From NCBI RefSeq assembly GCF_008630495.1, contig NZ_VWOJ01000001.1:186001-250000 (forward strand): DNA of 64,000 nt. Reading direction: 5' to 3'. A program made the translations under genes and the position numbers. Under the pieces are notes generated by a model. The model was not told the DNA's origin. It ran no database searches and saw nothing but the letters and a program-made list of their open reading frames with translations. The DNA is from Alkalicaulis satelles (GTDB taxonomy: Bacteria; Pseudomonadota; Alphaproteobacteria; Caulobacterales; Maricaulaceae). Of the stretch, positions 313 through 2,965 are shown in pieces; positions within the stretch are counted from its first letter, which is position 1, and each line of letters starts with the position of its first letter.

Positions 313-1656
313 TTAAGCATTCATCGCTGCGGCGACCCGGGCGGGCATGCGGTGCTCGCTGCGCGCATCCAGCGCCCCGGCGAACGCGGCTTCCAGCTCG
401 CCAAGCTCCCAGCGCTTTGAAAGCGCGTCGCGCACGCCCGCCACGACAGCCGCGTCCGACCATGCCGAATCCGCAGACAGGTGCAGGAAGGCGGCGGCCA
501 CCTCGCGCGTTTCGCCCACGCACTCCCAGGGTTTGGCGCCTGTCAGCCCGGCGATATCCAACCCATGGGCGAGATTGGCCGGATCGTGCAGGGGGCTGCC
601 TTGAAACACGGTTTCATGGCGGCCTGGCGCCAGCCAGCAGGCCATCAGGACGCTCGTGTAGACGCATTTGGAGCACGTCCCGCACCAGCGCTGGCCATCC
701 GCGAGCGCGGCCTCTCCGGCGAAGACGAAATTGCGGTTGCAGCTGGCGAATACGTCCAGCGCATGCGGCGCGCGGCGGGCGAGATAATGGGCGGTCCACA
801 ATTCGCTCACCGGACGCAAGACGGAGAAATACTCCAGTCCCGCTCCCGCAGCCTGGAAGGCGGCGCGCAGCGCGTCCTCGAACGCCAGCGATTTGGAGAA
901 TTGATGGTTCACCTCATGGCCCTCAGGCGTCATCAGGGTGGGTTCGCTGGCCGCGCGCTCATTGGCGAACGCCACCCAGTCCTGGCCCGAAGCCGCGGCA
1001 TGCAGAGCCAGCAGGCACGAATTGATCCCGGTGATGGGGATATGGCCGTTGAGCGCCTCGCCCGACCGCGACAGGGCGATGAGGCGCGGATCGATGGTGC
1101 GGGTCATCAGGGTCAGCAGCGCGCCGGCCATGGCCTGCAGGCGCGCGCCGACGCGATTCGACAGGATGACGCTGATCAGCTCGGTTTGCGCCCCGGCGGC
1201 TTCGAGCATGGCGCGGGCCACATGGCTGTCCTTGCCCCCGCCAAAGGCGCACACGGCGCGGGGATGCGCAGGTTCGCCGGAGGGCGCGGCGGGCGCATCG
1301 GCCAGATCCGGCCCCGTGATCTCCAGCGCCGGCGGGTAGGGCAGGGCGTTGCGCACATAAAACTCGCCAAGGCCCGGCCCGTAAGCCAGCCCCGCCAGAT
1401 GGCGCGCGGCGCCGGTCAGGCCGGTCTCCACCTGCACCCGCCCGGCAGGCGCGGCCTTGTAATAGCTGGTGCCGATCAGGATCGCCGCCAGCGTCAGGAG
1501 CCGGTCACGCACATCCGCCTCCAGCCCCGCCAGCGGGGCGTGGGGCGCAAAGCGCACCGCCTCCTCGAACCGTCCGAAGCGCGGGCACTCAAAAGCAAAA
1601 CGCACCGCATTGGCCTCAGGGTCCAGATGCGGCGCCAGGATGCGAAATTCACTCAT
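313..1656 (-). CDS. murL: UDP-MurNAc-L-Ala-L-Glu epimerase (MurL-like)
   Basis: 447 residues. A PP-loop-like GGGKDS sits at residues 139-144 inside CAFGGGKDSHV, and a cysteine cluster CGTCSKC lies in the C-terminal third. A family of about 450 residues with an N-terminal domain, a GGGKDS nucleotide-binding motif and a conserved Cys-rich segment matches MurL. MurL inverts the terminal L-Glu of UDP-MurNAc-L-Ala-L-Glu to D-Glu with ATP cleaved to AMP, and together with MurD2 replaces the usual glutamate racemase route in peptidoglycan synthesis. The identification rests on remembered family features, not an alignment; a general PP-loop ATPase is the alternative. The gene stands alone on the minus strand. 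Confidence 0.68.
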   Translation of the reverse strand: MSEFRILAPHLDPEANAVRFAFECPRFGRFEEAVRFAPHAPLAGLEADVRDRLLTLAAILIGTSYYKAAPAGRVQVETGLTGAARHLAGLAYGPGLGEFYVRNALPYPPALEITGPDLADAPAAPSGEPAHPRAVCAFGGGKDSHVARAMLEAAGAQTELISVILSNRVGARLQAMAGALLTLMTRTIDPRLIALSRSGEALNGHIPITGINSCLLALHAAASGQDWVAFANERAASEPTLMTPEGHEVNHQFSKSLAFEDALRAAFQAAGAGLEYFSVLRPVSELWTAHYLARRAPHALDVFASCNRNFVFAGEAALADGQRWCGTCSKCVYTSVLMACWLAPGRHETVFQGSPLHDPANLAHGLDIAGLTGAKPWECVGETREVAAAFLHLSADSAWSDAAVVAGVRDALSKRWELGELEAAFAGALDARSEHRMPARVAAAMNA

Positions 1657-1756: not shown

Positions 1757-1776
1757 CGAACCCTTGCAAGGGTTCG
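1757..1776. repeat. Perfect 20-bp palindrome (hairpin) at the start of the repeat block
   Basis: CGAACCCTTG is followed directly by its reverse complement CAAGGGTTCG. The same arms, with GCAA or GTAA between them, recur inside each 91-bp repeat unit at 1861-1878 and 1952-1969. This looks like a more diverged, outer copy of the same hairpin family. It lies in the non-coding stretch between murL and tRNA-Leu. Confidence 0.8.
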
Positions 1777-1822
1777 CACCCGGCTACACCGGAGCGAAGC
1801 CCCGGCTTCGCCGAGGCGAGAG

Positions 1823-2004
1823 CGCGAAGACCCGGACGGGTCTGAGCACAGGGAAACAACCGAACCCGCAAGGGTTCGAGAGCGCGACCGCGCGCCCGCA
1901 GCGTTAGCGAGGACGCGAAGACCCGGACGGGTCTGAGCACAGGGAAACAACCGAACCCGTAAGGGTTCGAGAGCGCGACCGCGCGCCCGCAGCGTTAGCG
2001 AGGA
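1823..2004. repeat. Tandem direct repeat, two 91-bp units rich in hairpins
   Basis: Unit 1 is 1823-1913 and unit 2 is 1914-2004. They differ at a single base (C at 1869, T at 1960). Each unit carries two short stem-loops: GACCCG-GA-CGGGTC (1829-1842 and 1920-1933) and CGAACCC-GCAA/GTAA-GGGTTCG (1861-1878 and 1952-1969). The block begins about 33 bp beyond the CCA end of tRNA-Leu on the same strand, so it would be transcribed as the tRNA trailer. Weak open frames cross it on both strands, but their translation is Arg-rich and repeats with the DNA, so I do not call a gene. The rest of 1657-2037 shows only GC-rich, hairpin-forming sequence related to the repeat. Confidence 0.85.
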
Positions 2005-2037
2005 CCGACCGAGCGGAGCGAGGAAGGACAGGAAAAA

Positions 2038-2126
2038 TGGTGCGGGCGGCCGGAATCGAACCGGCACGGAGGTTGCCCTCCAACGGATTTTAAGTCCGGT
2101 GCGTCTACCAGTTCCGCCACGCCCGC
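2038..2126 (-). tRNA. tRNA-Leu (anticodon TAA)
   Basis: Read on the minus strand, the acceptor arm GCGGGCG pairs with CGCCCGC near the 3' end. The D-arm GGCGGAACTGGTAGACGC is typical of leucine tRNA. The anticodon loop CTTAAAA gives TAA. A long variable arm (TTGGAGGGCAACCTCC) and the T-arm GGTTCGATTCC follow. The CCA end is encoded at 2040-2038. Length is 89 nt. Confidence 0.96.
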
Positions 2127-2266: not shown

Positions 2267-2965
2267 ATGACGGGCGTATCCGACATCCCCCAGGAGCCGC
2301 ATTATCACGGCCATCGTGACCGCTTGCGCGCGCGCTTTGCTGAGACCGGCGGGGAGGGGCTGGCCGATTATGAATTGCTGGAGCTGGCCCTGTTCCGCTC
2401 CATTCCGCGCCGGGATGTGAAACCGCTGGCCAAGGCCCTGCTGGCGCGCTTTGGCGATCTGGCCCGGGTGTGCGCAGCGTCACCAGACCAGCTCACCGAG
2501 GTGAGGGGCGTATCTGAAAAGACCGCGCTGGATCTCAAGCTCATCCAGGTGCTGGCCGTGCGCATGGCGCGCGAGCAGGTGACGGGCCGGCCTTTGATCT
2601 CGTCCTGGTCGGCGCTGCTGGATTATCTGCGCGCGGCGCTGGCGCACGCCACCACCGAGGAATTCCGGGTCCTGTTCCTGGACAAGAAGAACCGGCTAGT
2701 GGCCGACGAGTTCCAGGCGCGCGGCACGGTTGATCACGCCCCGGTCTATCCGCGCGAGATCGTCAAGCGGGCGCTGGCGCTGGATTCCAGCGCCATCATC
2801 CTGGTCCATAATCACCCCAGCGGCGATCCCACGCCGTCACGCGCCGATATCGACATGACCAAGCGCATCTGCGAGGCGGGCAAGCCGTTCGATATCGTGG
2901 TCCATGATCACATCGTGATCGGGCGCGAACGCACGGCGAGCTTCAAGGCGCTGGGTCTGCTGTAG
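2267..2965 (+). CDS. radC: RadC family protein (JAB/MPN domain)
   Basis: 232 residues from the ATG at 2267; a GTG at 2234 is in frame, but the family normally begins just before the YHGHRDRL motif, which favours the ATG. There is an N-terminal helix-hairpin-helix region (residues 45-95, RFGDLARVCAASPDQL then GVSEKTA). A C-terminal JAB metalloprotease-like domain has H181, H183 and D194 in VHNHPSGDPTPSRAD, preceded by a conserved LFLDKKN strand. The biochemical role of RadC is unsettled; the old link to recombinational repair has not held up. Its last 23 bp overlap the end of the convergent antiporter gene. Confidence 0.93.
   Translation: MTGVSDIPQEPHYHGHRDRLRARFAETGGEGLADYELLELALFRSIPRRDVKPLAKALLARFGDLARVCAASPDQLTEVRGVSEKTALDLKLIQVLAVRMAREQVTGRPLISSWSALLDYLRAALAHATTEEFRVLFLDKKNRLVADEFQARGTVDHAPVYPREIVKRALALDSSAIILVHNHPSGDPTPSRADIDMTKRICEAGKPFDIVVHDHIVIGRERTASFKALGLL

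Follow-up and report, generated by a model that had tools for sequence, protein, structure and literature searches.

What kind of element is the array of short palindromes that stands in the trailer of a tRNA-Leu gene of Alkalicaulis satelles, and how did it come to be there? The array lies near the start of the window, by which we mean the whole 64,000-nucleotide stretch analysed here (bases 186001-250000 of contig 1, in a 2.89-Mb genome of 8 contigs). An initial annotation of the window had proposed a recent duplication or gene conversion, with possible roles in trailer processing or termination, as a small RNA, or as an integration spot. Our analysis leaves that interpretation partly supported, and places the array in a wider family of repeats.

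Layout of the array

The features of the array are given below in window coordinates.

2038-2126, minus strand: tRNA-Leu(taa), i.e. tRNA-Leu(UAA), host of the array (ARAGORN and Rfam RF00005)
2033-2037, minus strand: T-run, TTTTT on the tRNA strand, immediately 3' of the CCA (sequence)
1952-2031, minus strand: unit 1, match to covariance model R1, 94.9 bits (G000:C1:187952-188031)
1861-1940, minus strand: unit 2, R1 match, 96 bits (G000:C1:187861-187940)
1757-1849, minus strand: third, diverged unit with a longer GC-rich module, R1 match, 29 bits
1914-2004, unstranded: 91-bp tandem copy, tRNA-proximal, one mismatch against the other copy
1823-1913, unstranded: 91-bp tandem copy, tRNA-distal, one mismatch against the other copy
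1952-1969, minus strand: hairpin H3 of unit 1, 7-bp stem, followed by GTTGTTT on the tRNA strand (fold; family covariation)
1861-1878, minus strand: hairpin H3 of unit 2, followed by GTTGTTT (fold; family covariation)
1919-1934, unstranded: hairpin H1 of unit 2, 6-bp stem (sequence)
1828-1843, unstranded: hairpin H1, second copy (sequence; 91-bp self-comparison)
1757-1776, unstranded: perfect 20-bp palindrome that closes the array (sequence)

The initial annotation was right that two 91-bp copies, 1823-1913 and 1914-2004, differ by one mismatch, which self-comparison at a 91-bp shift places as a C/T difference in a hairpin loop; an alternative register, 1816-1906/1907-1997, gives 3 mismatches between copies. 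Each copy does hold two short hairpins, AGACCC-ggac-GGGTCT (1828-1843 and 1919-1934) and CGAACCC-4nt-GGGTTCG (1861-1878 and 1952-1969), and the repeats do begin 33 bp past the CCA of tRNA-Leu, the spacer being bases 2005-2037. The outer palindrome at 1757-1776 had been called degenerate; it is a palindrome, but a perfect one of 20 bp. What had been missed is that the array comprises two full units and a third, diverged one, whose GC-rich module recurs (by eye) behind units in other genomes of the genus. The order in the transcript is CCA, T-run, unit 1, unit 2, the diverged third unit and the end palindrome.

Folding of the 281-nt trailer is more stable than that of every one of 200 dinucleotide-shuffled versions, whichever strand is read (z -5.3 and -5.2), as is expected of palindromes. 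At the Rfam gathering score the trailer has no match and only the 3 tRNAs of the window reach that level, which rules out a known Rfam family for the trailer. In its full length the 91-bp unit is confined to this array within the window genome. Two protein-coding frames lie nearby: a 447-aa open frame downstream of tRNA-Leu on its strand (window 316-1656, minus), with no Pfam match at 0.001, and a RadC protein gene (window 2267-2962, plus) that neighbours the array.

A family of related units in Maricaulaceae

The unit of about 80 nt consists of hairpin H1, a conserved core tCCTCGCTnAnGCTGCGGGCG, hairpin H2 and hairpin H3. A BLAST search with the 281-nt trailer gave relatives in 14 of 15 genomes of the genus, the window's own included, a range that the initial annotation had not seen; the exception, G004, is a 1.7-Mb assembly. 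For alignment A1, 8 of 42 unique units were dropped at the outset for an irregular H1 or H3, and long-form units were excluded by a text filter; alignment A2 holds 13 units. The covariance model R1 has 80 positions and was built from 13 units, of which 10 are from tRNA trailers, 2 from behind protein genes and 1 from a context that is unknown.

R1 matches were found in 50 of 137 genomes of the family (Maricaulaceae), representing 8 of 19 genera. In an order-wide draw of 398 genomes, 54 match at an E-value of 1e-5 or better, 16 of them outside the family, and the best E-value is 1.8e-10 outside against 1.8e-24 inside. The genomes outside mostly have one or two matches, with 10 in G442. The exact core pattern occurs in 19 stretches from named genomes; its hosts include Woodsholea maritima, Hyphobacterium indicum and Oceanicaulis sp. 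HTCC2633, as well as Oceanicaulis and Glycocaulis MAGs, an alphaproteobacterial MAG and a Maricaulaceae isolate. Among the open-access PMC papers listed for this subject, none reports such repeats in this lineage, as judged by title or the start of the abstract; the phrase 'tRNA-linked repeats' leads to PMC8144298 and an editorial, neither on this lineage by title. The available part of a survey of stem-loop families in 40 genomes does not mention Caulobacter (PMC2267715).

In two genomes of genus g8 (loci L227 and L236), we see a conserved non-coding sequence directly upstream of the unit and on its strand, 151 nt long in L227. It has a terminal stem GTGTGCGC..GCGCACAC, followed by TTTTC and then the unit, and a 6S-like shape by eye; at the gathering score it has no Rfam match, with one sub-threshold match on the other strand.

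Units lie behind tRNA genes, in the direction of the tRNA

Placement was assessed for the 150 best-scoring R1 hits of a larger total, which form 123 clusters, all scanned with ARAGORN. Among these best-scoring sites, 69 of 123 have a tRNA gene no more than 300 nt upstream on their own strand, against about 0.29 expected by area under random placement, a bias to be read with the caveat that 10 of the 13 training units of R1 came from tRNA trailers and that the sites are the best-scoring ones of this model. The nominal p of about 1e-146 is only indicative, since sites in related genomes are not independent. The distance is narrow: 51 of the 69 start within 20 nt of the tRNA end (two overlap the tRNA slightly), and 43 start 5-10 nt past it. 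A further 4 of the 123 sites lie behind tRNA 3' ends uncalled by ARAGORN and recognised by eye, the one in L199 being a weak Rfam tRNA (29.7 bits), and 50 are away from tRNAs. As for other geometries within 300 nt, one site is upstream of a tRNA on the same strand and none is antisense. By genus, tRNA sites make up 46/78 in g1 (plus 3 uncalled ends), 13/19 in g8, 4/4 in g15, 3/13 in g19 (plus 1 uncalled end), 2/8 in g6 and 1/1 in g13; the tRNA link is therefore weak in g6 and g19.

A second count used the 47 R1 hits at an E-value of 0.01 or better in three genomes, placed by hand against tRNA lists. By this count 38 occupy tRNA sense trailers, another lies past an uncalled tRNA end, and the remaining 8 have other locations. 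Of these 8, two weak ones (G000:C2:707000 and G010:C1:3032977) are on the opposite strand at most 300 nt from a tRNA-Val 3' end, so the orientation rule is strong but not absolute. At tRNA-Val(gac), weak trailer units face an opposite-strand weak unit in both genomes (G000:C2:707000-707195 and G010:C1:3032790-3033056).

Away from tRNAs, the upstream gene reads toward the unit at 26 of 34 sites whose strand could be called by a codon-usage score (p=0.003); the 34 come from 48 sites at which ARAGORN calls no tRNA, a set that still contains the four uncalled ends, and 4 of the 26 sense sites concern what is by eye one orthologous gene. In this set of 48, compiled without 7 of the 123 clusters (all 7 are in the 123-site tRNA count), 13 sites begin no more than 15 nt past the stop codon of an open frame that is 100 codons or longer. 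Taken together, the tRNA bias and the sense sites behind genes indicate that the family settles at 3' ends, strongly preferring those of tRNA genes.

The special tie to tRNA genes suspected from the window is thus borne out by the 69 of 123 sites, and the genome search that had been proposed returns diverged relatives elsewhere, in non-random places. The initial annotation had named absence elsewhere with no transcript, and random location in relatives, as the outcome that would leave only a local duplication; that outcome is not what we see, because the unit is present elsewhere and is not randomly placed in relatives. An isolated or chance local duplication is ruled out by the relatives in 14 of 15 genus genomes and the preferential placement in tRNA trailers.

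Paired stems without an RNA-strand signature

Pairing statistics were taken from 139 aligned hits from 100 of 115 loci, in an alignment that leans toward the structure. Stem cells are paired in 97.0% of cases, and in at most 46.4% when partners are slid by one to three columns. Double-change cells number 202, against 53 in shuffles; the number of base pairs that show any double change says less (8, where shuffles give 6.6, and 35 of 500 shuffles reach that value). Pairing kept at the RNA level on one strand would put G-U far above A-C. In the unit stems the ratio of G-U to A-C is 22:17, compared to 51:2 in our control, the acceptor and T stems of tRNAs from two of these genomes; the two ratios differ (Fisher 3e-6, on related rows). 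As G-U is in no excess over A-C, selection on a folded RNA does not follow from these stems. The data speak for palindromes that are kept, or repeatedly remade, at the DNA level, with room for a weak RNA role. Features tied to one strand are present as well: 98 of 139 R1 hits have a T-rich stretch (at least 4 T in 6) in the 16 nt upstream of the unit, as do 7.6% of random places.

Turnover and tandem expansion

Five tRNAs were compared between the window genome (G000) and G010, and only tRNA-Phe gave an alignable downstream flank. Its trailer is empty in the window genome and holds about 200 bp with two units in G010, before the same downstream flank, a filled/empty pair in which gain and loss are indistinguishable. 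In G011 this flank lies beyond a diverged unit (by eye). Behind tRNA-Leu(UAA) in 14 genomes, a unit of at least 49 bits is present in 8, a weak trace (17-19 bits) in 2, and no R1 hit in 4. Copy number had been suggested as a point of comparison among relatives, and clear units in these trailers do vary, from 1 to 3. Behind tRNA-Leu(UAG) of G011, another species, there are seven units with 85-bp spacing, five of them with equal scores. The varying unit number and the seven-unit array suggest that the 91-bp pair in the window most likely arose by recent expansion on the spot, within an array that was already there, in agreement with the recent local duplication proposed at the outset.

The tRNA-Leu(UAA) gene itself is split in three genomes of the genus, at L287 (G004:C49:2800-4900), L288 (G001:C1:488500-492500) and L284 (G002). 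The gene in G004 has a 253-nt insert (ARAGORN) and a group I intron match just under the cut-off (49.8 of 50 bits); a weaker group I intron match (43.2 bits) adjoins the tRNA-Leu 5' half in G001, and the insert in G002 is of about 1037 nt.

Traces of tRNA 3' ends

Of 135 distinct units, 15 have a CCA whose last base lies exactly 24 nt past H3; the next-best position in the 45 nt scanned has 6. In several of these units the CCA at +24 closes a tRNA-like 3' end, made up of 7 acceptor-like nt, a discriminator and the CCA, then T or G; examples are L169, L174, L114, L157 and L182. For the 14 CCA words that lie 18-28 nt after H3 and have an assigned tRNA, the preceding 8 nt resemble the unit's own tRNA (4.14 against 3.30 shuffled, p=0.005, in a test devised after the pattern was seen). 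When 68 tRNA trailers were compared with the final 11 nt of their tRNAs, the own trailer gave no better match than swapped ones. With own equal to swapped, and the CCA at +24 confined to a subset, a general tRNA-end duplication in all trailers is ruled out. Among the 68 only L174 matches in full, with an exact copy of the final 11 tRNA nucleotides behind its unit. For the window array, the last 30 nt of tRNA-Leu and the trailer share no exact word longer than 6 nt, and the best match is 11 of 19.

At L150 (G010:C1:1106500-1110000), a unit stands behind a tRNA 3' end that lacks its 5' part, next to a gene for a tyrosine integrase (PF00589, 3.3e-15), and an island may have split the tRNA from its trailer repeat. 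L288 has an integrase-like gene and a ClpP gene beside tRNA-Leu 5' halves; in the former, the SAM-like domain is over and the catalytic domain just under the cut-off. The same genome, G001, has a tRNA-Leu 3' half with a unit array about 22-23 kb from these 5' halves. About 280 bp from this tRNA-Leu 3' half, L089 (G001:C1:466295-469463) carries an open frame (2008-2931, plus) with an ABC-three-component C-terminal domain (PF20279, 2.5e-38).

Comparison with known repeats

The tRNA-linked repeats (TLRs) of E. coli (Egan and Landy 1978; Rudd 1999, as described in PMC8144298) are the closest in placement and tandem habit. That account counts 22 of them at ten loci. Each carries 18-19 bp from the end of the tRNA or rRNA upstream, and until the paper's own work on rrA, rrB and rrF no function was known; most are still without one (PMC8144298). 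Like TLRs, which by that description lie immediately behind tRNA or rRNA genes, the units here directly follow tRNA genes, with one to several per locus and several loci per genome; placement directly downstream on the same strand is seen in the window and at the 69 of 123 best-scoring sites. The likeness extends in part to the tRNA end: in 15 of 135 units a CCA stands at a constant distance from H3, in several of them within a word that looks like a tRNA end, and at L174 the end of the tRNA is repeated exactly. Unlike the TLRs of that description, the window array lacks the 18-19 bp of tRNA-end identity at the 3' end of the repeat, which is also not general in the family; and the units have one core across different tRNAs and genera, and occur behind protein genes too. 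As the tRNA-end identity that defines TLRs is missing, we do not file the window array as a TLR member.

REP and BIME elements are short intergenic palindromes that form mosaics and tandem arrays, dispersed in one lineage; in REP, a GTAG or GGAG tetranucleotide precedes the palindrome, and the family Y1_Tnp (PF01797) includes the REP-associated transposases. The units here are likewise short intergenic palindromes in many copies and in tandem arrays within one lineage, but differ in their strong bias to the sense trailers of tRNAs. The tetranucleotides are rare in units (GTAG in 5 and GGAG in 3 of 139). PF01797 was found in 0 of 15 genus genomes by a search that was positive in 5 of 14 controls, E. 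coli and Caulobacter included, which rules out a REP with its transposase.

Caulobacter CIR elements, structured intergenic repeats of about 110 bp that carry GANTC (Chen and Shapiro 2003; PMC2229807), are on that description similar in being structured intergenic repeats of alphaproteobacteria. Identity with CIR is ruled out, as only 5 of 139 units have GANTC and none occurs in the window array (1757-2037). The leuZ 3' external transcribed spacer is a tRNA-Leu trailer with a hairpin terminator at its end, and pairs with a known small RNA (PMC6191717). As far as that account goes, the window array resembles it in being a tRNA-Leu trailer with hairpins that may act as terminators. What sets the leuZ spacer apart is that it acts by pairing with a known small RNA.

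Alternative explanations

The narrow, sense placement behind the CCA (43 of 69 sites at 5-10 nt) and the 13 of 48 other sites directly behind a stop codon could mean that units are functional 3'-end cassettes, i.e. intrinsic or Rho-assisted terminators and processing barriers selected behind tRNAs, other stable RNAs and some mRNAs. Each window unit has H3 plus a T-run, and both H3 with TTGTTT score as terminator-like on the tRNA strand, a weak signal (2 against a shuffle mean of 1.1). A T-rich stretch (at least 4 T in 6) comes no more than 12 nt behind H3 in 35 of 139 hits, where the background is 5.4%. In G000 and G010, 4 of the 9 trailers with a unit contain a terminator-like hairpin with T, as do 5 of the 72 without; the presence of a unit is judged here by the core pattern, which misses weak units such as those of tRNA-Val. 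YC dimers are more frequent where a unit is present (18.8 per 90 nt, other trailers 14.8; p=0.002), but C-over-G skew does not differ from other trailers in these two genomes (p=0.20), giving mixed support to the Rho reading. Selection of this kind is also hard to square with stems that lack the RNA-strand signature (22:17, with tRNAs at 51:2), with the 72 of 81 trailers of G000 and G010 that have no unit by the core-pattern test, and with unit presence that varies between orthologous trailers; we regard such cassettes as a possible but rather doubtful explanation. That the array is the source of a regulatory small RNA or sponge we hold to be very improbable. The trailer does fold better than all 200 shuffles, and the leuZ trailer (PMC6191717) and the TLRs rrA, rrB and rrF (PMC8144298) offer precedents, but the trailer has no Rfam match at the gathering score, the stems show no RNA-strand signature, and arrays at the same tRNA differ between species.

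Traces of tRNA ends bear on the reading of the repeats as what is left of elements that had inserted at the 3' ends of tRNAs, with att-type duplications. Four units do lie behind tRNA 3' ends uncalled by ARAGORN, one of them, at L150, adjoining a Phage_integrase gene; the CCA at +24 in 15 of 135 units, the 14 words that resemble their own tRNA end (p=0.005) and the exact 11-nt repeat at L174 point the same way. They are countered by the 68 trailers that match their own tRNA end no better than swapped ones, by a window that shares at most a 6-nt word with its tRNA end, and by the units behind protein genes. An integration scar is accordingly improbable in our view, and of the integration spot first suggested the sites at uncalled ends stand, one beside a tyrosine integrase, against the lack of tRNA-end duplication in most trailers. 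An origin that we consider unlikely, though still worth setting out, is a palindromic element directed at tRNA 3' ends and moving without a REP transposase. It would enter in the sense direction behind the CCA at the T-rich junction, possibly via an RNA or pre-tRNA intermediate or by recombination with the transcribed trailer; trailers would be its breeding ground, its palindromes would be kept at the DNA level, and some units would have captured a tRNA-like 3' end with CCA.

Discussion

The position, the orientation bias, the taxonomic range, the stems kept through double changes, one filled/empty trailer and the varying unit number are all direct observations. The array is probably a local member of a new, lineage-specific family of modular palindromic repeats, analogous to TLRs, that was dispersed and then expanded in tandem. 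In such a family, the unit of about 80 nt would settle in a tRNA trailer in the direction of the tRNA, most frequently 5-10 nt past the CCA; sites directly after a stop codon would be rarer. Units would be gained and lost; we found no transposase, recombinase or target-site duplication tied to the unit, the mobiliser search covering PF01797 in the 15 genus genomes. They could then multiply in tandem by slippage or unequal crossing-over, and the 91-bp pair seen here may have arisen in this way. Transcribed as part of pre-tRNA-Leu, the array would form its trailer and be trimmed off, and the ends formed by H3 and the T-run probably cause weak transcription termination or act as an exonuclease barrier. 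With such an effect, the trailer would be a tolerated, perhaps mildly useful, niche.

E. coli tRNA-linked repeats were first described in 1978 according to PMC8144298. A second, alphaproteobacterial family of tRNA-linked repeats, with one core across tRNAs, a strong sense bias and a filled/empty site among close relatives, would make the origin of such repeats testable. The comparison of G-U with A-C as a test of strand symmetry, with tRNAs as control, is a simple gauge of whether a hairpin is kept as RNA or as DNA. In short, it becomes a testable question whether repeats persist in tRNA trailers because selection keeps them there, for termination or 3' maturation, or because their mode of spread targets the 3' ends of tRNAs.
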